Positions 9,258 to 34,976 of a stretch of 37,202 bases of DNA are shown here, one piece after another. This DNA comes from Deltaproteobacteria bacterium. Its GTDB lineage: Bacteria > Desulfobacterota > DSM-4660 > Desulfatiglandales > B25-G16. Position 1 is the first letter of the stretch; the number at the start of each line of letters is the position of its first letter. The position numbers and the translations under genes were made by a program. The DNA is taken from positions 4,743,787 to 4,780,988 of the forward strand of contig CP070673.1 of the NCBI GenBank assembly GCA_020351915.1. The letters are read 5' to 3'. The notes under the pieces are model-generated. The model was given only the letters and a program-made list of their open reading frames with translations, did not search any database and had not been told where the DNA came from.

Positions 9258-10085
9258 CTACACAAAGCACTTCTGCCGCTTATAGTTGAGATAATGCTCT
9301 GTGATAAAATTCAACGGTTTCTTCGCCTTTTGAAAATTTCCATGGAGTGTCCAGAAAACCTCAGAGAGATTGAGCTCCCTGGCTGACTGATGTTCTGCGG
9401 CCAACTTATAGAATCTTCGACCTTCTTTTTCATACTCTTCCGGGCTAATTTTCACCTTTCCGCGAATTTGAGGCCTGAGTTGCCCTGAGAAGGGGTAACG
9501 GTAATCTCGCTCAGCATAATCAGGAAATATGCCTAAAATAAACAGACAAATATCAGCGATCCGTTTATAAAAGCCCAGCCGATACTCATCCTCTACCGCT
9601 CCACAGAGACTCATCAGGCTGTGGATATCCAAGTCATTGAATCGGATTTTTTTCCAGATCCCCTTTCCTACCCTGAATGAAATGGCATAGCTCTCAATTT
9701 TGGTGAAAGATGAAAGCATGTCAGCCAGGTACAGCAGGAGTGACTCCTTGGTTAGGATCTCTACCACCTCTTTGGTATCAAATACCGGAATCCTCATGGT
9801 ACTGGTTCTTTCAACTGTGTAGCTCACCCCCGCCAAATCTTTGACTGCCTTCCTAAGCAGAACCTCAAAGAAGAGGGTAGGTGAGATTTTCAAAGATATC
9901 TCCTCATCATCCATCAGTTTCCTGAATACCTTATCATCCGTGACAAAGGAGTTTCTAAAATCTTCATCCTCTCTGATGATCTGCTTGAGCTTCGGTTTAT
10001 TGGTGACCTCGGGAGATGCAGTATCTACCAAGAAATCCAAATCTCTGTCAGATAATCGCAAATGTTTCAGGCTTACCCGAGACAT
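9258..10085 (-). CDS. Protein of unknown function (275 residues)
   Basis: I do not recognise a family. The protein is charged and mostly helical by eye, with no signal peptide or membrane segment. Notable features are an N-terminal ARG/LYS-rich stretch (MSRVSLKHLRLSDRDLDFL), a middle part with LLLYLADMLSSF and FRVGKGIWKKI, and a Tyr-rich segment PDYAERDYRYPFSG near residue 200. The ATG at 10085 is preferred to the TTG at 10106 because GGAAAGGGAGAGAACTCCA precedes it. Codon use and RBS make it a real gene. It is flanked by the MFS permease downstream and a ~280-base spacer upstream, so context gives no function. Confidence 0.7.
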   Translation of the reverse strand: MSRVSLKHLRLSDRDLDFLVDTASPEVTNKPKLKQIIREDEDFRNSFVTDDKVFRKLMDDEEISLKISPTLFFEVLLRKAVKDLAGVSYTVERTSTMRIPVFDTKEVVEILTKESLLLYLADMLSSFTKIESYAISFRVGKGIWKKIRFNDLDIHSLMSLCGAVEDEYRLGFYKRIADICLFILGIFPDYAERDYRYPFSGQLRPQIRGKVKISPEEYEKEGRRFYKLAAEHQSARELNLSEVFWTLHGNFQKAKKPLNFITEHYLNYKRQKCFV

Positions 10086-10385
10086 TGGAGTTCTCTCCCT
10101 TTCCAAAATCGGAAATCATGCCAGCTATTTCTTAAATCTAAGAAAGCTATCAAAGAAAATCAATACCATATTTTTTGCAGCTGAGTAGTGAGACTATTCC
10201 CTGCGTAACACACTGCTGGGTTTTTCGGTGATGAGAGGGCTCTTGAAAGTCCCATAAAATGTTGTGGGAAAAACAGGGCGTTGTGCCACGGCAGCTAGTC
10301 TAGGCCGTTCCAGAGCGAGAGCACGTAGCCGAATAGACCTCGGCCAAGAGTTGATAGATGGTGCTGTATAGATTCGGATGTCACC

Positions 10386-21271: not shown

Positions 21272-21430
21272 GAGTCTCTAGGGGTCTACATAAGCAGAGA
21301 TCTTGAAATATGGGAAGATGGATATTTTGCCCGAACAGTTGGGGACAAGGTACCAACAGGGGTGATTAGGAAATATATTAAGTATCATCGTGAACAAGAA
21401 GAGTCTCCCAAGCAACTGGAACTGTTTTAA
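21272..21430 (+). pseudogene. C-terminal fragment of an IS200/IS605-type TnpA transposase
   Basis: A frame shifted from the SDR gene runs directly out of the SDR 3' end. It encodes YISRDLEIWEDGYFARTVGD then KVPTGVIRKYIKYHREQEE and the terminal QLELF. The pattern W.dGYFa.TVGd...vi.kYI..h matches the C-terminal end of Y1 (HUH) transposases of the IS200/IS605 or REP-associated group. The catalytic HUH motif and tyrosine helix are absent, so this is a ~50-residue relic. Its stop codon overlaps the convergent CorC-type gene by two bases. Nothing resembling the rest of the element is visible within the SDR gene. Confidence 0.6.
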
Positions 21431-22719
21431 GACGCCCGGCCCTGTGGGCGGGGAACTTCACTATCACTTTTCTCCGGCATATCAGAGACAGTAATTGATA
21501 CTTCCTTGATAGAGCGCTTGTCGGCCTGCGTGATAGTGAATTTCAGGTTGCCAAACTCAAAGCGTTCCCCAATCCGGGGTATCCGTTCCATATGCTTTAG
21601 GAGAAAACCGGCAACTGTTTCGTAGTCATCCTTGGGAAGTTGTAGTTTGAGATGATCATTCAGCTCATCTATCTCCATGCGGGCATTCACAAGGTACTTG
21701 TTTTTTCCAATTTTTACAAAAAAATGCTCTTCTTTGTCGTATTCATCATATATTTCTCCAACAACCTCCTCAAGGATGTCCTCGATGGTCACAATACCAA
21801 TGGTGCCACCATATTCGTTCACTACTATGGCAATGCTGTTTCCCTTGGTTCGTAGCTGCTTCAGAAGCTCATCAACGGGCGCGGTGTTTGGCACATAAGG
21901 AGGTGTACGAACTATGTCCTTAAGATTCTGCGTTTTTTCGCGGGCTGTAAGGAGATCAAAGGTATGAACGATGCCTATGATATTGTAGGCTTCCTCCGAA
22001 TAGACTGGTATCCTTGAGTAACCGGTTTTCTGGGCAAGGCTTATGGCCTCGTCGATGCCATCTCCTATCTCGAGTGCCGCCACGTTAATGAGCGGTATCA
22101 TGATGTCTTCCACCTCGGTTTCGGTGAAATCGAATATCCGTTCAACGATCTTCTTCTCAGCCGTTCTCAGGCCGCTGTCCATATTCCATATTGCAAGGTA
22201 GTTCTCGAGATCTTCCCTCGTGGTGTGGGGCCTGAGATGAACGCCTTCCATGCCAAAGAGCTTGACAAAGAGCCTTGTCGCCCATGAAAGAGCCACCACA
22301 AGGGGGTAAAAGATCACCGAAATTGCCCTCAGAGGATAGACAAGATATGGGGCTATCTGCTCGGCACGATATCGATATACGGTTTTCGGGACGATTTCCC
22401 CGAGAACGAGGATAGCCGGCGTCATGATGATTATGGTGATATATTTATACGCTTCTCCTAGGTGAGTGATGATCAAAAACGTCGCAATGGCATTGGCCAG
22501 CACCGCGGATATATTAGTGCCGAGCAGTGTGGTGGAGAAGAACCTTTCCGGTGTGTGGAGCATGGCGTCCAACTGGGTTTCCCTTCTGGATCCCTTCTCC
22601 GCAAGTGCCTTTATGCGCACCCGATCGAGGGAAACCATGGCAGTTTCCGTGCCCGAGAAAAACCCCTCAAAGAACAGGCAGAGACATATGACGAATATCC
22701 AGAGGACGAGCTCAAACAT
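21427..22719 (-). CDS. CNNM/CBS-domain membrane protein, HlyC/CorC family (full length)
   Basis: Inner-membrane protein of 430 residues: an N-terminal CNNM transmembrane domain (beginning [30 protein letters not shown], with the conserved GEIVPKTV motif), a CBS pair (DIMIPLINV to [10 protein letters not shown]), and a C-terminal CorC/HlyC transporter-associated domain ([13 protein letters not shown], then [18 protein letters not shown]). This family is annotated as magnesium/cobalt efflux or hemolysin-like. The annotated frame is open to 22818, but the family N-terminus begins at the ATG at 22719. That ATG lies inside the 3' end of the upstream gene (8-base overlap), so translation is probably coupled. 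The final residues extend over a GC-rich end and converge on the transposase fragment. Confidence 0.9.
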
Positions 22720-23755
22720 TGTTCTTGCCCTCTCTGTCGGTTTCATCCATGATCTCGCCGAATAGCTCCTCGAGTATGTCCTCAAGGGTGACCATCCCCA
22801 CTGTGTTCCCCTGGTCATCCACTACGATCCCGATGTGAGTTTTCCTTTTCTGGAATTGAAGAAATACAGACAGTGCATTCCTGCCCTCTGATACAAAAGT
22901 GGGATTACGCAGTATGGATCTTATGGTGAGAGGTTTTTTTCTCTGAGCGGAACCTTTGAGGCGAAGCAGCTCTTTTGCATGGGCAAAACCAACAATCCGG
23001 TCAAGGCTCTTTTCATAGACCGGGTATCGGGAGAATTTCTTCGTCTCTATGAGTTCCATAAACGCGTCTTCGCCAATGTCTTGGGGAACCGCTACAATCC
23101 CCTCACGCGGTACCATTATGTTCGATATTGGGATGTCATCCAGGTGAAACGCCCGGTGAATAAGATCCCGCTCATCAGGCTCAATGGTGCCCTCCCTGCT
23201 GCCGATATCCACCATGGACCTGAAGATGCTTTCATCGATAGTGACCGAATCGAGGGGCTGCTTGGTTGGGTCTTTCACGAACAATCCAATAAATACCTTT
23301 GCAGCGGAGTTGAGGACATGACGAACAGGTGTTATCGCGATTGAAAAGAGATGGAGGGGGTAGGAGTTTGAGAGCGCGATTCTTTCCGGATACTTCACTG
23401 CTATCGTCTTGGGTATTATCTCCCCGACAAGCAGAAGCACAGGAACGGTCACTGCCATGGAGCAAAAGGGAAGATACCGGTCGCTGATTATATCCTTGGT
23501 GATGGAGTAAAATAGTGCTGCGGCAACTACGGAGATGGAGATATTGACGATCTCGTTTCCGATAAGTACCGTAGTGAGAAACGTGCTTGGGTTTTTCAGG
23601 AGCTCCAATATAAACTTGAAACCTGAACCTTTCCGGATTTTCCTTCGGCGAAGCCTGACCTTGCTGAGTGAAAAAAAGGCGATTTCAGTTGAGGAAAAAA
23701 AACCTGAAAGAAGTAATAATAGCGCTATGGCTACGAGCTTTATGTAAATGTGCAT
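22712..23755 (-). CDS. CNNM/CBS-domain membrane protein, HlyC/CorC family (lacking the CorC C-domain)
   Basis: The 347-residue partner of the next gene. It has a CNNM membrane domain starting IYIKLVAIALLLLLSGFFSSTEIAFFSLS, with GNEIVNISIS and VGEIIPKTIAVKYPERIALSN, then a CBS pair (NIMVPREGIVAVP through LEDILEELFGEIMDETD). It stops right after the CBS pair, so the C-terminal CorC/HlyC domain found in its neighbour is missing. That is a natural short form of the family rather than obvious truncation, because the stop falls in the coupling overlap with the downstream gene. Tandem, coupled CNNM proteins may form a heterodimer, since the CBS pairs dimerise in this family. The ligand and ion are unknown. 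AAGAAGAA is the only weak RBS before the ATG. Confidence 0.88.
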   Translation of the reverse strand: MHIYIKLVAIALLLLLSGFFSSTEIAFFSLSKVRLRRRKIRKGSGFKFILELLKNPSTFLTTVLIGNEIVNISISVVAAALFYSITKDIISDRYLPFCSMAVTVPVLLLVGEIIPKTIAVKYPERIALSNSYPLHLFSIAITPVRHVLNSAAKVFIGLFVKDPTKQPLDSVTIDESIFRSMVDIGSREGTIEPDERDLIHRAFHLDDIPISNIMVPREGIVAVPQDIGEDAFMELIETKKFSRYPVYEKSLDRIVGFAHAKELLRLKGSAQRKKPLTIRSILRNPTFVSEGRNALSVFLQFQKRKTHIGIVVDDQGNTVGMVTLEDILEELFGEIMDETDREGKNNV

Positions 23756-23938: not shown

Positions 23939-25126
23939 TCAAGGAGTGACGATTAGCGAGGTCTTTTCCTCTTTTTCTTTATCCTCGTAATCACCCTCAA
24001 TCAGGATGTATAGAGATTTCAATAGGAGGTTCCAGATGAAGGGGTTGGGGTCAATAGAGCTAAAGGGATTTTGTAGATCTATTGCAGCGCTCACAGCTAG
24101 CCTTGCCTCCTCTTCTTTTCCTGTTTTAAGCAGGATATGCGCCATTTCCTCCAACCGCCTTTTCCAAAGGAGTCTCATGTCATCCGGGAAAAGTTCCTCC
24201 AGGGCATCCCTGTAAATGGAATTCAAGCGGGCTTCTTTTTGATCAGGTCTGAGCACAATCTTGCTTTGTTGTGCCTCGGTGATGCTGGAGGCATATTGTT
24301 CCACCTCTTGGCCGCCTAAGTGCCATGTGGAAAAGGGCATGATCTTGTGTAAGTTGACTGAGTCCTTTAAGAAATGTGGACGGTCCTTTACCTCATCCTC
24401 TCTTATGTATTGATATATGATAGGATCAGGGTCATCCCAGGTTATGTCTCTAAATTCCTTTTCAGCATCATGATATCCCCGGGGAAGGGGCTTGGAAAGC
24501 CTTTGGTGGAGAGAAGAGGCCTCTTTAAGAAGATGAACACAGTAAGCCCCAGGGGTGTTAACAATAGGAAAATCTACAGAAGAAAGAGAGCCTTTCACAA
24601 ATTCCTTAAAGCCCTTTTTACTGAATTCTTTAAGGTTAAACTGTTGTATTCCTTCCAGGTCATTCACTATGCTAATAACTACCAGGAGCCCCCTTAGAGG
24701 TTGAGGCTTGGCAATCACGATTATCCTACTTCCTGTCGAATCAATTGTGCCCAGGTATCCCTCAGGTTCGGCAAGTTTCGGAGGTCCGAGGACAGGCTCA
24801 CCTTTTGAGGGTTTTTCTTCCCACCTGACACCCCTTTGCCGCAGTTTATAGAGCGTTCTCTTTATGGACTTGATAATCCACTTTTCTTCCGCTCCGGCCA
24901 GCATTCCAGTAAGGAGTTGGGCGGTTTCAGCATTGGAAACCCTCGCCAAGGCCTCGATTAAGGGAATCGTAAGGAAAGGCTCCTTCTCTAAATAGGAGGA
25001 GACCATCAGAAGAAGCTCTTCGGGTGTGGCGTTCTGGCTCTGGGCGGCCTCGATGTCGTGGAGAATCCGATCTATTTTTTCCGCTAATAGAGGATCTACT
25101 TTTCTGTCTTTTCCCTTTTTGCCCAT
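23939..25126 (-). CDS. Protein of unknown function (396 residues), HEAT-like N-terminus
   Basis: I cannot name a family. The N-terminal ~100 residues are helical and Leu-rich (LLLMVSSYLEKEPFLTIPLIEAL, TAQLLTGMLAGAEEKWIIKSIKR), resembling an alpha-solenoid or HEAT-type start. A beta-rich part around residues 130-170 contains GTIDSTGSRIIVI and LRGLLVVISIVND, a possible small independent domain. The C-terminal half is charged and helical with two Trp-rich patches. There is no signal peptide or membrane segment. The ATG at 25126 is favoured over 25147 because CTAGGGAAGCGAAC precedes it. It lies upstream of the CNNM pair on the same strand but 180 bases away, so a shared operon is only possible. 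Confidence 0.65.
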   Translation of the reverse strand: MGKKGKDRKVDPLLAEKIDRILHDIEAAQSQNATPEELLLMVSSYLEKEPFLTIPLIEALARVSNAETAQLLTGMLAGAEEKWIIKSIKRTLYKLRQRGVRWEEKPSKGEPVLGPPKLAEPEGYLGTIDSTGSRIIVIAKPQPLRGLLVVISIVNDLEGIQQFNLKEFSKKGFKEFVKGSLSSVDFPIVNTPGAYCVHLLKEASSLHQRLSKPLPRGYHDAEKEFRDITWDDPDPIIYQYIREDEVKDRPHFLKDSVNLHKIMPFSTWHLGGQEVEQYASSITEAQQSKIVLRPDQKEARLNSIYRDALEELFPDDMRLLWKRRLEEMAHILLKTGKEEEARLAVSAAIDLQNPFSSIDPNPFIWNLLLKSLYILIEGDYEDKEKEEKTSLIVTP

Positions 25127-25287
25127 GTTCGCTTCCCTAGGTGGCATGCAGCTTGCGAGGTAGCGATAATTTGCCTTGTTAGCTGTTGAGAGTATATGGT
25201 AGGGGTAATTATGTGTAAAGGGAAAAAAGAAAAACTGTTAGTCGATTGTTGTCAGTTGTTAATAACAGGAAGGCATCTAAAGTATCA

Positions 25288-27794: not shown

Positions 27795-30044
27795 CTACTT
27801 AATCTTGCCCAGCGCATTAAGGACTTTGTCCGGAGTGAACGGATAGTCCATTATCCTTCGGCCAATGGCGTTATAGACTGCCATAAGTACGGCACTTGGT
27901 CCAGGTGAGGTAGCTATCTCGCCAACGCCAATAGCATGAAAACGGTGGCTGGGTATAGGTGTCTCCAGAATTACGTTCGTAAATGGTGGTAGGTCGTTGA
28001 AGGTTCGCCATTTATAGTCTATGAGGTTGGAGTTGAGCATACGCCCGGTATTGATATCCAGCACGTTGCCCTCGAATAAGGCTGTGTCCAAGCCCGCTGA
28101 CCCCAGGGCGCCGTGTAACTGTCCTTCCAGAACAGCGGGGGATATAATCTGACCGCAGTCGGTACTGTTGACGACATTCATCAACTTTACTTGACCCGTC
28201 GCAGTATCTACCTCGACCTCGGCGAAGGTTATGAGAAAATTGCTCAGCGAGAAGTCCTCTTCGAAACGGCCATGGCCAATGCAGGTGCGCACTATGCCGG
28301 TTGCCTTACGCCAGGGAATCCTGCGCTCAGGCTCACCAACAACAAATATCCAGCCGTCTTCAGTATCCAACGCATCCGGTTCGACGTTCAGCACCGGCGC
28401 AGCCAGTTCCAGGAGAATTCGCCTGGCATCTTCGGCAGCCTTGATTACAGCCGAGCCCACAGTATACGTGCCTCGAGAACCCACCAGCCCGAACTCGAAT
28501 GGATTAATATCCGTATCGGGTGGGGTCATGTTAACACGGTCAAGGGGAAGGTCCAGAACCTCGGCAGCCATCTTGCATAAGCTGCTCCGCTGGTCTTGCC
28601 CGGAATTCGAGACAGCAGCTAAAACAAGCGCCCGGCCATCAGGTGTCAGTTTGACCATGGCTTCAGAATCGTCCTCTCCAACATCCGCATTACAGTGAAT
28701 ACCCAGACCGACGCCCCGCCGCTTTTGACCGTCAACCGCAGTTGGTTTACCCCAACCGTGCCATTTATCATGCCAGCCAAATGTCCGCGCTCCCTCGTCG
28801 ATAGCTTTAGAGAAATCAATGCCACGGTAGACATACCACTTACCGTCTCGCCAGTAGTATCCATCGCCCGCCCTGACAAAATTCTTTTTGAAAAACTCCA
28901 CCGGATTCACACCAACTTTCTCCATGGCCATTCCCATTATGGGCAGCATCGCACTTTCCAGCTCCTGGCCGCCGTAGCCCCGGATAATGCCGCTAGGCGC
29001 CCGATTGGTACAGACGAGGGTAGAATGGAGGTCCCAGTTGGGGCACCGCAGGGCTAACTGAAGCTCACCGCAGCCGACGGCAATCTCGTGTGGTGCCACC
29101 TCCGAACCGGAGCCAGTATTGACCAGCCAGTCTCCGGCTACGGCTGTGACAGTACCGTCCTTCTTGATGCCGACCCGGGCATGGATACGTGACCCTATCC
29201 GCAGGGAGTAGGCAGCGAAATGCTCCTCCTTGCTGTAATACACCTTGACTGGTCTACCGGTAGCCCTTGAGAGAAGAGCGGCATAGCCGACAGGGGTCAT
29301 GTTGGCATTTTTCGTGCCGTAGCTGCCACCGCACTGTGTGCTGATAACCTGCATATCTGCCATGCCGATAAAAGGCTGTCCGATATACTTATTCATACCC
29401 ACGGACTGTGATGCGGTATAGATAACCAGTTTATCCGGGTTTTCCCAGTAAGCAATAATACCGGGGGGTTCGGGGGGCAGGGGGTTGGGGAAACATTCAT
29501 AGCTGGCCGTGCCCTCGATTGTTGCATCAGCCTCCTTGAAACCCTTCTCAACATCGCCGCGAACTACATTTTGCAGGAGCCTGGAAATTTGGGGGATAAT
29601 GTTTTTCGGGTATTGACCGTAGAGCTGAGGTTGACCCGGCGCAGTGGCATCCTCGACATCGAAGCAAGTCGGCAGCGGCTCATATTCCACATCGATCAGC
29701 TCCAACGCTTCGTCGGCAATCTCATAGCTTTCCGCCGCCACCAGGGCTACAGCATCACCGACAAAACGCACCTTACTATCTAATATCCTCATGTGCTTGG
29801 GGATACCCCACTCCCAGTCCGGCACATCCTCATAGGTTAAGACCGCATGGACGCCGGGGAGGGCTGCAGCCCGACTGACGTCTATTTTTTTTATATTTGC
29901 GTGGGGAAGGGGACTCCTGAGCGCCCTGCCGAAAAGCATCCGCGGCAGGCGTACATCATCCAGATATTGAGCTCTTCCCGTAACGATGTCTCTCGCGTCT
30001 TTGCGGGGTGTGTCTTTTCCGATATGACGATAGTTGCTAGCCAT
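27795..30044 (-). CDS. Molybdenum hydroxylase, molybdopterin-binding large subunit
   Basis: Catalytic subunit (749 residues) of the xanthine oxidase/CO dehydrogenase/4-hydroxybenzoyl-CoA reductase superfamily, carrying the Mo-molybdopterin cofactor. Visible motifs are DTPRKDARDIVTGRAQYLDD at the start, QCGGSYGTKNANMTP (Mo-cofactor and substrate channel), IIRGYGGQE, GSRGTYTVGSAV, and the catalytic Glu709 in GVGEIATSPGP. No xanthine-type or CO-dehydrogenase-type (AYRCSF) active-site loop is seen. It is the last gene of the operon after the FAD-type (30537-32936) and [2Fe-2S] subunits, with its start overlapping the [2Fe-2S] gene by 8 bases. Likely substrate: an aromatic or heterocyclic acid or acyl-CoA; not assignable. 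A C-terminal motif identical in style recurs as a relic at 32949. Confidence 0.9.
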   Translation of the reverse strand: MASNYRHIGKDTPRKDARDIVTGRAQYLDDVRLPRMLFGRALRSPLPHANIKKIDVSRAAALPGVHAVLTYEDVPDWEWGIPKHMRILDSKVRFVGDAVALVAAESYEIADEALELIDVEYEPLPTCFDVEDATAPGQPQLYGQYPKNIIPQISRLLQNVVRGDVEKGFKEADATIEGTASYECFPNPLPPEPPGIIAYWENPDKLVIYTASQSVGMNKYIGQPFIGMADMQVISTQCGGSYGTKNANMTPVGYAALLSRATGRPVKVYYSKEEHFAAYSLRIGSRIHARVGIKKDGTVTAVAGDWLVNTGSGSEVAPHEIAVGCGELQLALRCPNWDLHSTLVCTNRAPSGIIRGYGGQELESAMLPIMGMAMEKVGVNPVEFFKKNFVRAGDGYYWRDGKWYVYRGIDFSKAIDEGARTFGWHDKWHGWGKPTAVDGQKRRGVGLGIHCNADVGEDDSEAMVKLTPDGRALVLAAVSNSGQDQRSSLCKMAAEVLDLPLDRVNMTPPDTDINPFEFGLVGSRGTYTVGSAVIKAAEDARRILLELAAPVLNVEPDALDTEDGWIFVVGEPERRIPWRKATGIVRTCIGHGRFEEDFSLSNFLITFAEVEVDTATGQVKLMNVVNSTDCGQIISPAVLEGQLHGALGSAGLDTALFEGNVLDINTGRMLNSNLIDYKWRTFNDLPPFTNVILETPIPSHRFHAIGVGEIATSPGPSAVLMAVYNAIGRRIMDYPFTPDKVLNALGKIK

Positions 30045-30534
30045 GCTTCCCCCCTTGTATTGCCGCCATGATGGCTTTCAGCACCTCGTAGTGTGAAATA
30101 CAGCGGCAGTAATTGCCGGCAAGGGCCTGCTTGATTTCATCCTCGGTTGGGTTGGGATTCTCGTCCAGAAGGGCTTTGGTGGTCATAATGATGCCGGGAG
30201 TACAAAAGCCGCACTGGAAGGCGGTGTGGTCTATAAATGCCTGTTGTAGGGGGTGCAATTGGCCTGTTTTTGGATCTTCCAACCCTTCGATAGTGGTGAC
30301 GCTCATTCCATCGCACTCCACAGTCAGGGTTGTGCAGGATAGGACAGCTTGCCCGTTAAGGATTACGGTGCAGGCGCCACAAGCCCCCCGGTCGCACGCG
30401 ATCTTGGTACCGAGGTAACCCAGGGTATCTCGCAATGTTTGGGCTAATGTATCCGAAGGTAAAACATCCTTTCCTATGAGCAGCTCATACGGCTTACCAT
30501 TGACCACTAGATTGATGTTTTTCTTATCTGGCAT
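30037..30534 (-). CDS. Molybdenum hydroxylase, [2Fe-2S] small subunit
   Basis: Electron-transfer subunit of 165 residues with both [2Fe-2S] clusters of the family: the plant-ferredoxin-type cluster ligands C47, C52, C55 and C67 (ACDRGACGACTV, ... LSCTT) and the second set C108-x2-C111 and C143-x-C145 (FQCGFCTPG, NYCRC). It passes electrons between the Mo site in the large subunit and the flavin subunit. Length matches CoxS/HcrC-type small subunits. The start is two bases beyond the flavin subunit stop, and its 3' end overlaps the large subunit start. All three subunits are therefore almost certainly one translationally coupled complex. Confidence 0.94.
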   Translation of the reverse strand: MPDKKNINLVVNGKPYELLIGKDVLPSDTLAQTLRDTLGYLGTKIACDRGACGACTVILNGQAVLSCTTLTVECDGMSVTTIEGLEDPKTGQLHPLQQAFIDHTAFQCGFCTPGIIMTTKALLDENPNPTEDEIKQALAGNYCRCISHYEVLKAIMAAIQGGKHG

Positions 30535-30536
30535 GG

Positions 30537-32936
30537 TTACCTCATTTCCCCAGAACTTTCAGGCGGTAGAATGGCGCGCCGCACCAGTTCTCTGGCTATA
30601 GTGACTTTATAGCTGTTTTTCTCGAGTGGTATTGCATTTTCAAGAGCCGCCTGGGCTGCAGCGGTGGCCTGCCCATCGTCAATCGCCCGTCCGATTAAGA
30701 CTTTTTCAGCAGTGGTAGCCTGCACCGGGCTTGGGGCAACCGCACCTAATACGATCCGTGCGTCCTGGCAAACCCCGCCGTCAACAGTGATGACCGAGGC
30801 GACGCTCACGATGGGGAAATCCACCGACTCCCGCAGCCTGAATTTTAGGAATGTCTGCCTGGCTCCATCTGGAGGCCGAGGAACCTGGATTTCGGTTACC
30901 ATCTCATCCGATTCCAGGATCGTCCTCAGGGAACCGAAAAAATCCTCAATGGGGACTGTCCTGGTGCCTTTGGGTCCGGCAATCTCTACTCGTGCCCCCA
31001 GAGCTACCAGCACTACGCCCATATCCGATGAGCTCACCGAAACACAGCCACAGTTGAAACAGCGATTGGCCTCTCCTTCAATCTCACTCAAACCCAGACC
31101 AAGGGTATCCTCAACAGTTATGCTTCTCTCCGCTACTGGCCGTTTGGGCATTGTAACCCGACTTGTTTTCTTAAGGTAATCGCTGTTGAACCTCAAGAAA
31201 GGCTGAGCCGTTTTCTCGTCTTTGTCCTTAGCCTGTGCTTTTCCCCTTAGATAGACATTCATGGCGGCGGCCGCCCTTCTCCCGGCAGCAATTGCCTCTA
31301 TGACTGTGGCCGGGCCGTGGGTCACCGAGCCACCGGCAAACACACCCGGTACACTGGTTGCCTGAGTTTCCGGGTCAACCGTTATCAAGCCTTGCTCTAC
31401 CTTTAAGGGAGTTGCGGGATCAATGAAGGTAAGATCCGTGTCATAGCCTACGGCCAGCAGTATCTGGTCGGCCTCCACCGTCTGTTTGACAGCGCTATCA
31501 AAGGTGGGGGCAAAACACCCCTGCTCGTCAAAGACAGCGGTGCACCGGATAAGCTCCATTCCCGTGACCTTATCGTCGGCTTTGAGCACCCGGTGCGGTC
31601 CCCAGGAAGTCATCAACTTGACTCCCTGCTCAACAGCCAGCTCAATCTCCCAAGGAAGCGCCGGCATCTCCTCCCGGCATTCCAGACAGGCAATAGTCGC
31701 TTCCTCAGCCCCCAGGCGCAGGGCGCTGACAGCCACATCAACGGCGGCATTACCCCCGCCTATTACCAAAACCTTCTTCCCGGGGATTTCCTTAACCCCG
31801 AGGTTGATATTGGTCAGAAATTCCATACCGAATCTGGTTGATTCCTCACCCTCCAGCCCTATGGATACTGGATTCCAGGCTCCGTTGGCAATGAACACGC
31901 TATCAAAGTCCCGCTTGAGGTCATCCAGAGTTATGTCCCTGCCGACATCAACCTTACACTTAAATTCAACCCCTGTATTTTCAATCGCTTTTACTACCCG
32001 CTTCACAATATCCTTGGGCAGCCTGTAAGCCGGTATCACGTAGGCGAGCATGCCGCCCGCCTCTTCCATTTTGTCGAACACGGTAACGCGGTGTCCCGAC
32101 ATTCTGAGATAGTACGCCGCCGAGAGACCGGCCGGTCCTGAGCCGATAATGGCTACACTCTTGCCGGTATCGGTCCCCGGTGCTTTGATGATTTCATCTG
32201 CCTTATCAAGGATATAATCACCCATGAATCGCTCGATGTCCCTTACCGATACCGATTCGTCGAAGTCGCCGCGATTGCACTCCTGCTCGCAGAAATGTGG
32301 GCACACCCGCCCCGTTACCGACGGCAGCGGGTTGGTGTTAAGCAGCGTCCTGGCTGCTTGGGGCAGGTCTCCCTCCCTGACTTGGCTCAAGTATGAGGGT
32401 ATATCCACCCCTCCCGGGCAGGCTAAAGAGCAGGGCGGGCTGGTATCTCTCCAACCTCCGAATATGGAGTGATACTGGCTCTCCCTGGGCAGCGCGTAGC
32501 AGCCTTTGCCCCCCTTCAGATAGCACAGGATTCGCCCCCCCACACTGTGGGGATAGCGGTAGTACCAGCAGCGCACGTCCTGACACAGGTTGCCGCCGAT
32601 AGTCCCCATTCGGCGAATCTGTGGAGTCGCCACCGCTTCGGCGGCCTCAGCCAGGAGTTTATACTTCTCCTTAACCACCGGAGATTGGGCTATTTCTTCC
32701 AGCTTGGCTAAAGCCCCTATCTTCAGTCCGCCGCCATCCTCACTGATATGATTCAGTTTGGGGATGGTCTTGATGTTGACGATAGCCTCCGGGTAAGCGG
32801 GTAGAATTTTATCTTTAAGCGTACTCAGCAGGTCAGTGCCGCCGGCAATCAGCTTGGCCCTACCCCGGTTTTTTTTGAGCAGTTTAACGGCTTCCGTTAC
32901 GGTTTTGGCATCAACGTGGTTGAAAGATTTCATCAA
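30537..32936 (-). CDS. Flavin/Fe-S subunit of molybdenum hydroxylase with an internal GltD-like NAD(P)H oxidoreductase domain
   Basis: Normal CoxM/HcrB-type subunits have ~290-330 residues; this one has 799. Residues 1-161 form the FAD-PCMH fold (AGGTDLLSTLKD, TPQIRRMGTIGGNLC). An HcrB-type [4Fe-4S] loop begins with C118, C123, C138 and C146. From about 165 to 629 lies a complete GltD-like module: N-terminal Fe-S cysteines C169, C173, C212, C216 and C220 (GRVCPHFCEQEC), FAD motif IGSGPAGLSAAYY (264-276), NAD(P)H motif VIGGGNAAVDVA (391-402), the C-terminal SVPGVFAGG flavin segment, and ANRCFNCGC. The PCMH fold then resumes (SSDMGVVLVALGARVEIAG) to the CO-dehydrogenase-type C-domain. By position C631 corresponds to the fourth HcrB cluster ligand. 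The RBS GAGGAG lies 10 bases before the ATG. The likely consequence is direct NAD(P)H coupling of the Mo enzyme. Confidence 0.88.
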   Translation of the reverse strand: MMKSFNHVDAKTVTEAVKLLKKNRGRAKLIAGGTDLLSTLKDKILPAYPEAIVNIKTIPKLNHISEDGGGLKIGALAKLEEIAQSPVVKEKYKLLAEAAEAVATPQIRRMGTIGGNLCQDVRCWYYRYPHSVGGRILCYLKGGKGCYALPRESQYHSIFGGWRDTSPPCSLACPGGVDIPSYLSQVREGDLPQAARTLLNTNPLPSVTGRVCPHFCEQECNRGDFDESVSVRDIERFMGDYILDKADEIIKAPGTDTGKSVAIIGSGPAGLSAAYYLRMSGHRVTVFDKMEEAGGMLAYVIPAYRLPKDIVKRVVKAIENTGVEFKCKVDVGRDITLDDLKRDFDSVFIANGAWNPVSIGLEGEESTRFGMEFLTNINLGVKEIPGKKVLVIGGGNAAVDVAVSALRLGAEEATIACLECREEMPALPWEIELAVEQGVKLMTSWGPHRVLKADDKVTGMELIRCTAVFDEQGCFAPTFDSAVKQTVEADQILLAVGYDTDLTFIDPATPLKVEQGLITVDPETQATSVPGVFAGGSVTHGPATVIEAIAAGRRAAAAMNVYLRGKAQAKDKDEKTAQPFLRFNSDYLKKTSRVTMPKRPVAERSITVEDTLGLGLSEIEGEANRCFNCGCVSVSSSDMGVVLVALGARVEIAGPKGTRTVPIEDFFGSLRTILESDEMVTEIQVPRPPDGARQTFLKFRLRESVDFPIVSVASVITVDGGVCQDARIVLGAVAPSPVQATTAEKVLIGRAIDDGQATAAAQAALENAIPLEKNSYKVTIARELVRRAILPPESSGEMR

Positions 32937-33755: not shown

Positions 33756-34976
33756 CTACAAGGGAGACCGTTTGATTCTCAATACTAAAACCGTTGCCAG
33801 GCCACTAAATCCACAAAAGACGAGCCAAATAGGCTGATAGCTTCCAACGGTATCAAACACCCACCCGGCTACGGCAGGGCCTATAATCCCTCCAAAGGAC
33901 CCAGACCCCATCATAATCCCGATCATTTTCCCAAAGGAATCTCTTCCGAAATATTCCCTCACAATCGAGCCCCTTGCGACCGTGATTCCTCCATGGCCTA
34001 GAGGCAAAAAGAGAAGAAAAGGGACAATTACCCATCTCACCTGCACATAACTGAAGGCAAGCAATCCTAAACTTATGAAGGCGGTTGCCATGGCCAACAC
34101 ATGCCTTTTATCGAACACATCCCCTAACCAGCCGAGCCCAAATCTTCCGATGATGCTGATCAAGGGAAGAGCCCCTGCAACCAACCCAGCAGTGGGACGT
34201 GGCATGCCCACACTGGCCAGGTAGGGCATCACATGGGTGAACACTGCCATAAGGGCCATAAAGCGTATAAACTCCGTGATATTCAGGTAGAGGAAAGACC
34301 TCATTTTAAGCGCTTCCCTGAGAGTAATTTCCACTCCTGTATCTTGAATTTCTTGGCCTTCGACTTGAGGGCTCGATACCTCACCGTCGGGAAGATAGCC
34401 ATAATGCTCTGGCCTATTGCGGATAACCAGTGATAAAGGTAGCCCTAGGGCCCACATTCCCAGTCCGAGGATGATCAGAGTAGCTCTCCACTGATAAAGG
34501 TCTATGAGACCAACGATCAGCAGAACCATTAATCCACCGGCGCCAACACCAGAGCCCATCAAACCGAGGGCTAACCCTACTTTCCTGCGAAACCAGTTGG
34601 CAACGGCAGCCATGGTGACCACAGCGGCACATCCGCCGGCGCCAAATCCGAGGAGCAGGAAGGCGGCATAGAACATGGCAAGAGATTGGGTCAGGCTGAG
34701 GAGGATGAGCCCGAATCCGACGGTAACGGTGCCCCACACCATGAGCTTTCTCGGCCCGAACCGATCAACGAGGAAACCTATTAAAGGCGCGAAGATCCCC
34801 ATCTCTAGGCCCCGGAGGCTCGCGGCAAGGGAAATCTGTGTATAACTCCAGCCGAACTCTTCTCTGATCGGTTTAAAAAAAGCGGTAAAACCGAAGACGA
34901 CGGTACCGGCAACATAAAGGCCGATAAGGGAACAAGCCAGAACGATCCACCATCCGTAGAAGATTTTCTTACTCAT
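33756..34976 (-). CDS. MFS transporter, OFA/monocarboxylate-like
   Basis: Inner-membrane permease of 406 residues, 12 helices, of the same family as the permease at 7807-9039. The hallmark start FYGWWIVLACSLIGLYV, then FGFTAFFKPIREEFGWSYTQIS, is followed by the loop motif GFLVDRFGPRKLMVWG, the halfway loop NRPEHYGYLPDGE, and the second-half motif GWLGDVFDKRHVLA. Likely carboxylate or monocarboxylate transport; the substrate cannot be specified. There is no good Shine-Dalgarno before the ATG at 34976 (CAGAACCC), so the start is chosen from the family N-terminus. It is transcribed toward the molybdenum hydroxylase operon from a repeat-bearing spacer and is alone. Confidence 0.87.
   Translation of the reverse strand: MSKKIFYGWWIVLACSLIGLYVAGTVVFGFTAFFKPIREEFGWSYTQISLAASLRGLEMGIFAPLIGFLVDRFGPRKLMVWGTVTVGFGLILLSLTQSLAMFYAAFLLLGFGAGGCAAVVTMAAVANWFRRKVGLALGLMGSGVGAGGLMVLLIVGLIDLYQWRATLIILGLGMWALGLPLSLVIRNRPEHYGYLPDGEVSSPQVEGQEIQDTGVEITLREALKMRSFLYLNITEFIRFMALMAVFTHVMPYLASVGMPRPTAGLVAGALPLISIIGRFGLGWLGDVFDKRHVLAMATAFISLGLLAFSYVQVRWVIVPFLLFLPLGHGGITVARGSIVREYFGRDSFGKMIGIMMGSGSFGGIIGPAVAGWVFDTVGSYQPIWLVFCGFSGLATVLVLRIKRSPL

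Follow-up and report, generated by a model that had tools for sequence, protein, structure and literature searches.

We analysed a 37,202-nucleotide stretch of contig CP070673.1 (assembly GCA_020351915.1, Deltaproteobacteria bacterium; positions 4,743,787 to 4,780,988), hereafter the window, which encodes a three-gene operon on its minus strand. The first gene (30537..32936) is a single open frame in which a CoxM/HcrB-type flavin adenine dinucleotide (FAD) subunit carries an inserted GltD-like module. The frame has 799 codons from a TTG, or 798 from the ATG at 32933, which has GAGGAG upstream; residues are numbered here by the 799-residue count. Downstream on the same strand lie the genes for a [2Fe-2S] small subunit (30037..30534), which has PDB relatives, a Fer2_2 match above the cut-off and eight canonical cysteines read by eye, and for a large molybdopterin (Mo) subunit of 749 amino acids (27795..30044), with MoCoBD_1, MoCoBD_2 and Ald_Xan_dh_C domains and 1rm6_A as its best PDB match. 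With a Mo large subunit, a [2Fe-2S] small subunit and a subunit combining FAD (PCMH) and CO_deh_flav_C domains, the heterotrimer is a molybdenum hydroxylase of the xanthine oxidase family.

A preliminary description of this DNA had read the first gene as an FAD subunit split by a GltD-like module, and the domain composition confirms it. FAD_binding_5 (residues 4-119), Fer4_20 (166-244), Pyr_redox_2 (260-552) and CO_deh_flav_C (702-790) all fall in the same protein; the two module domains, Fer4_20 and Pyr_redox_2, score above their cut-offs, as do MoCoBD_1 and MoCoBD_2 of the large subunit. The N-terminal FAD (PCMH) part (residues 1-161; 32454..32936) contains C123, C138 and C146. The module (residues 162-630; 31047..32453) contains C169, C173, C212, C216, C220, E235, an FAD motif, an NAD(P) motif, C626 and C629. 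The C-terminal part (residues 631-799 and the stop; 30537..31046) is 41% identical over residues 631-793 to an un-inserted paralogue. The FAD subunit matches 1rm6_B, 1ffu_C and 3hrd_C, and in NCBIfam both ends of the fusion match FAD subunits of the xanthine oxidase family, the matches read being below their cut-offs. The best NCBIfam match to the middle is the GltD-like PRK12771 (residues 164-631; 451.5 of 516 bits, below the cut-off); the cut-offs for gltA (TIGR01316, 298 of 471.75 bits) and YgfK (TIGR03315, 287.8 of 835.3 bits) were also missed.

The insert starts after YHSIFGG and stops directly before C631. The beta subunit of 4-hydroxybenzoyl-CoA reductase (HBCR) has cysteines at positions 122, 138, 146 and 155, as read from an alignment of an un-inserted relative (L016) with 1rm6_B, and these we take, as the preliminary description did, to be the ligands of its [4Fe-4S] cluster. 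Mapped through an alignment of L016 with the window, they correspond to C123, C138, C146 and C631. C146 and C631 flank the module, which bears out the earlier placement of the insertion between the third and fourth ligands of an HBCR-type loop. All four loop positions of an HBCR-type FAD subunit are filled by Cys, which predicts a [4Fe-4S] cluster. Three of the ligands first proposed (C138, C146 and C631) were retained. The remaining one, C118, gave way to C123; it corresponds to C117 of HBCR and is Cys in only 84 of 98 aligned fusions.

The 98 fusions result from thinning 258 sequences to less than 90% identity, with 160 removed at 90% or more, and are biased in composition: 80 belong to the window's clade (at least 70% identity to the window) and 18 are more distant (37-51%). 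Three copies (L009, L010 and L033) and one partial sequence (L029) were left out before this alignment; L018, L020, L022, L023 and L024 entered through a later one, from which L027 was left out. Twelve residues (C123, C138, C146, C169, C173, C212, C216, C220, C626, C629, C631 and E235) are invariant in all 98 fusions and present in 258 of 258 before thinning, and the second alignment gave the same invariant list. Twelve ligands is the number that three predicted [4Fe-4S] clusters would need. The un-inserted relatives L016 and L017 retain the four loop cysteines and lack the module cysteines, C626 and C629 included, which supports the division into loop and module ligands. The window's own genome also encodes a loop-type FAD subunit of 383 amino acids that is not fused (L008:1489-2640, the same as L066:6180-7331) and that has about 45 extra residues between the third and fourth loop cysteines, so the loop seems to be a tolerant insertion site. 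Two further FAD subunits of that genome, L054 and L055, have an HBCR-like Cys loop, which the other 10 of the 12 fetched lack.

The window genome is one assembly, with 90.6% completeness and 7.2% contamination, and on that ground the join might be an artefact of assembly or annotation, or the module an inactive passenger. However, the join is common to all 120 homologues among the matches listed and occurs in several named records; the assembly-artefact reading is thereby refuted. The module's cofactor motifs and ligands are conserved, which argues against a passenger, and we give the artefact-or-passenger explanation practically no credence. The module is terminal in none of the 98 aligned homologues, so that the earlier claim of an internal insertion holds across the set.

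The module differs from classical GltD in lacking an EAxRCxxC motif ahead of its CxxxCP, and has EANRCFNC at its end. To place this difference, CxxC arms were counted at 66 loci, of which 59 came from two queries (the window insert and the classical GltD of the same genome) and seven were from earlier work; an arm was a CxxC no more than 12 residues before the first Cys of CxxxCP, or no more than 110 residues after the reductase core. Six loci were dropped: L006, where the C-terminal core was not reached; L109 and L131, where the N-terminal core was not reached; L106 and L116, whose N-terminus was cut; and L132, which was masked. The arm occurs exactly once in 60 of the 60 GltD-like proteins parsed, at the N-terminus in 26 and at the C-terminus in 34, never both or neither, although these proteins represent few orthologous groups, each query draws its own type, and they are not 60 independent events. 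Two of the 34 proteins with a C-terminal arm are themselves fusions (L082 is the window). If the rule of one end or the other holds, it would offer a simple sequence criterion for fused GltD modules.

The C-terminal arm most likely pairs with N-terminal cysteines, because the L004 and L137 proteins terminate only a few residues from the CxxC motif. Since the arm of the window module is C-terminal, C626 and C629 are expected to be the remaining ligands of the module's distal cluster, most likely joining C169 and C220. The proximal cluster would be held by C173, C212, C216 and E235 and would resemble that of NfnB in having a Glu ligand; E235 aligns with a Glu in NfnB (4ylf_B) and with a Lys in 9bov_A and 9n5u_A. 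According to passages of the StnC paper, the proximal cluster of NfnB has a Glu ligand, and the residue able to bind at that position, a Lys in StnC, is essential (PMC10482914). C631, two residues past C629, is probably the last ligand of the loop cluster (C123, C138, C146 and C631). The junction peptide C626-F-N-C629-G-C631 (31044..31061) would thus hold two predicted distal-cluster ligands and the predicted fourth loop ligand.

On this assignment the insert would have its two junctions at the distal cluster, an arrangement that would set this cluster beside the loop cluster. Electrons would then run from NAD(P)H to FAD, through three [4Fe-4S] clusters to the second FAD, and by way of two [2Fe-2S] clusters to Mo. 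This is the likeliest reading of the path sketched in the preliminary description, with three [4Fe-4S] clusters now predicted, and we regard a fixed NAD(P)H-to-Mo wire as probable. The large subunit of StnC/NfnABC (8oh5, 9bov, 9n5u) likewise has a GltD-like module in a molybdoenzyme-like chain and passes NADPH electrons along [4Fe-4S] clusters, and its chains 9bov_A and 9n5u_A, the best fold matches, share the C-terminal RCxxC motif. Parts of the StnC paper describe a linear path NADPH-FAD-C7-C6-C5, but in a NuoG/formate-dehydrogenase-like host with a catalytically inactive FdhF domain and a bifurcating partner (PMC10482914); StnC also has Lys in place of E235. Dihydropyrimidine dehydrogenase, the glutamate synthase beta subunit and NfnB have the same FAD, NAD(P) and two-[4Fe-4S] module, for which a review gives, in the case of dihydropyrimidine dehydrogenase, the order FAD-nFeS2-nFeS1-next cluster (PMC8097209). 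They differ in that the module is N-terminal or a separate subunit, with no loop insertion and no Mo partner, and in NfnB the RCxxC arm is N-terminal.

The GltD FAD might instead bifurcate or confurcate electrons, coupling NAD(P)H and a second carrier to a low-potential reduction at Mo. E235 is a Glu, as in bifurcating NfnB, rather than a Lys as in StnC, and R305, invariant in 98 of 98 fusions, aligns with a flavin-site arginine (R239 in StnC, R201 in NfnB). Yet StnC has this Arg and, by the passages concerned, there is no bifurcation at the FAD in question (PMC10482914). The window operon showed no NfnA- or HydBC-like partner, and a likely Nfn pair lies near just one of 20 loci (L069; open reading frames, ORFs, read by their sequence starts, with L080 left out). 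We consider such coupling very improbable, and the confurcation entertained in the preliminary description was not supported. The L069 pair (L069:3-2259) lies about 5 kb away from the fusion there: a GltD-like protein that has an N-terminal RCxxC and its neighbour of 303 amino acids resemble, by sequence start only, a separate NfnAB pair.

The choice between NADH and NADPH can be approached through residues L418-E419 (31680..31685). Three Nfn-type chains (9n5u_A, 9bov_A and 4ylf_B) have Arg-Arg in this place, and such Arg residues bind the NADPH phosphate. Leu-Glu is found in 89 of the 98 fusions and Arg-Arg in 9; inside the window's clade the ratio is 80 to 0, and outside it 9 to 9. This suggests that the window and its clade favour NADH, and the Arg-Arg fusions, L019 among them, are predicted to use NADPH.

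The architecture is also encoded in Dehalococcoidia, in Clostridia and in the human gut species Enterocloster bolteae. Pidgeon (2025) was reportedly the first to link urolithin C dehydroxylase (Ucdh) to E. bolteae. Passages of one report describe Ucdh as a xanthine-oxidase-family dehydroxylase, NADH-driven in vitro and 32.7% identical to HBCR (PMC12771579). In an Enterocloster-like genome, the Mo subunit next to the fusion shares 26.3% identity with HBCR, so the fusion is probably a different enzyme; that Ucdh itself is the fusion was considered and thought unlikely. Genome G439 has 13 Mo subunits; an FAD subunit can be recognised within about 1.5 kb of five of the 12 not belonging to the fusion, and none of these five FAD subunits, judged by its sequence or its positions in the alignment, has room for the loop. 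Near L046, examined with L040 as a Mo subunit region of G439, no adjacent FAD subunit was seen among the ORFs.

To survey gene neighbourhoods we compared 21 loci. A clustered large-subunit ORF is present at 19 of them and a small-subunit ORF at 17 (L080 ends at the contig edge, and no separate small-subunit ORF clustered in L070, L071 and L076). All three genes were called at 16 loci; 15 of these have them in the order small-large-fusion, and the window has fusion-small-large. Acyl-CoA ligase ORFs belonging to a single cluster occur at 8 of the 21 loci, with PF00501 detected in five and L013, L069 and L073 assigned by sequence clustering only. Across the 20 loci with a counted genome density (L011 left out), 8 were seen where 1.27 would be expected (P about 5e-5, Poisson); leaving out L013, which nearly duplicates L010, gives 7 against 1.26 (P about 3e-4). 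Because of these ligases a CoA-thioester substrate, as for HBCR, is plausible, though the association is only a hint.

HBCR of Thauera (1rm6) has no GltD module and takes its electrons from ferredoxin; a low-potential donor is needed for dehydroxylation of this type. We think it reasonably likely that the insert between the loop cysteines provides a fixed wire that would drive a reductive, dehydroxylating reaction at Mo on an acyl-CoA-type substrate. If so, hard-wired NAD(P)H input would explain HBCR-type chemistry without a dedicated ferredoxin, and the fusions name a candidate enzyme set in Dehalococcoidia, Clostridia and E. bolteae. As to direction alone, reduction is favoured, at little more than even odds, by the predicted Glu ligand of the proximal cluster, the loop of HBCR type, the nearby CoA ligases and the precedent of Ucdh, which NADH drives.

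The same wire could carry the opposite flow, with a hydroxylase oxidising its substrate at Mo and electrons leaving through the loop cluster and the module to NAD(P)+. Hydroxylation is the activity of most xanthine-oxidase-family enzymes. The best NCBIfam match of the Mo subunit is the xanthine dehydrogenase XdhA, below its cut-off, and L016 matches the aldehyde oxidase 5y6q_B better than HBCR (155.2 vs 131.8 bits), with 5g5g_B also close. On the other side, the predicted proximal cluster has the Glu ligand typical of NfnB-type clusters, which are regarded as low in potential, and ligases for acyl-CoA formation are found repeatedly close to the operons, as would be required for HBCR chemistry, although hydroxylation of an acyl-CoA would be compatible with both observations. 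We judge the oxidative direction unlikely, if a serious contender.

Several observations weigh against a reductive, NADH-fed, HBCR-like enzyme. The aldehyde oxidoreductase FAD subunits (5y6q_B and 5g5g_B), which are among the closest solved chains to L016, also have the loop, so the loop does not set the direction. All three window subunits score well under the HBCR cut-offs (159.7 of 257.8 bits for TIGR03193, 352.3 of 994.55 for TIGR03194 and 171.5 of 404.55 for TIGR03195), and the window Mo subunit shares only 27.6% identity with the printed segments of HBCR alpha. The window's own locus has no acyl-CoA ligase. NADH use is not general across fusions, since 9 of the 98 (9 of the 18 outside the window's clade) carry Arg-Arg. 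The grouping of cysteines into clusters follows from conservation and motif logic, including the arm rule with its narrow sampling, and in the open-access literature no biochemistry was found for any fusion. Finally, no Mo subunit is in view at L081, the most diverged fusion (36% identity); there, at L081:4338-9370, the neighbours of the fusion are a small subunit and a flavoprotein resembling fumarate reductase.

The history of the fusion was examined in a midpoint-rooted tree of FAD subunits, 26 of them fused and 9 un-inserted, in which HcrB, L054, L055 and L037 form long branches. The fused label needs three changes on this tree, two of them forced by the starred branches, a pattern that fits one gain and two losses of the module. 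The un-inserted L016 and L017 are placed among fused rows, with moderate support near L016 (89/89) and strong support for L012 with L017 (99/97). Upstream of the un-inserted subunit, L016:6-3164 encodes a 1052-amino-acid protein like acyl-CoA dehydratase activases (116.1 of 125.4 bits, narrowly below the cut-off), a neighbour that would fit a ferredoxin-fed enzyme.

Horizontal transfer of the fusion gene is likely, because the window and L009 fusions are 85% identical while the RpoB sequences of the two genomes are 54.6% identical over 647 aligned positions, and because the fusion was not found in any of 4 genomes from the same genus or 13 others from the same family, many of them incomplete. 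The small subunits of the two loci are 72.5% identical and the large subunits 65%, so the two loci resemble each other more in the electron-input subunit than in its partners. The L009 record (JAUVYB010000004.1) is titled Deltaproteobacteria, a name that looks wrong: RpoB on its fusion-bearing contig (C41) shares 71-74% identity with the RpoB of a Dehalococcoidia genome. More tentatively, and at somewhat less than an even chance, the module may act as a transferable socket, so that a molybdenum hydroxylase which acquires it is fed by NAD(P)H instead of ferredoxin. The six-residue C626-x-x-C629-x-C631 would solder two [4Fe-4S] clusters together, which is possible because this module class has its distal-cluster arm at the C- and not the N-terminus; the gene would cross phyla and pair with diverged Mo subunits, and its loss, as in L016 and L017, would leave an intact ferredoxin-type loop.

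The architecture is apparently a new combination of known modules, in enzymes that appear to be uncharacterised. No description of it was found in the open-access full-text literature, as judged by titles, the starts of abstracts and opened passages. Table 4 of a 2018 survey, which covered domain fusions of molybdoproteins across about 5,900 organisms, includes GltD fused to the dimethyl sulfoxide reductase family and not to the xanthine oxidase family (PMC6147048); because molybdoproteins were the subject of the survey, FAD subunits may have been passed over. A review of GltD-like flavoenzymes names, in the sections concerned, GltS, dihydropyrimidine dehydrogenase, Nfn and AegA as users of the module (PMC8097209). 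The domain combination is already visible in databases, since automatic Joint Genome Institute (JGI) names of homologues join both functions. YgfK, encoded with XdhD-YgfM in the E. coli urate reduction cluster, brings the same kinds of domain together in one gene cluster and was considered as a possible counterpart that supplies electrons in the same way from a gene of its own. That candidate was rejected: by passages of one report, YgfK is an enzyme in its own right, a separate yanthine reductase, and XdhD with YgfM took NADH by itself (PMC12507026).

Upstream of the window operon is a gene for a major facilitator superfamily transporter (33756..34976, minus strand), whose ORF cluster recurs at 4 further fusion loci, making 5 of the 21; it is possibly a carrier of the substrate. 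Elsewhere in the window, ORFs at 9258-10106 (282 amino acids) and 23939-25147 (402 amino acids) have no Pfam match at the thresholds used, and at 21427-23755 two CNNM/CBS (CorC-like) genes overlap, which looks like the result of a tandem duplication.

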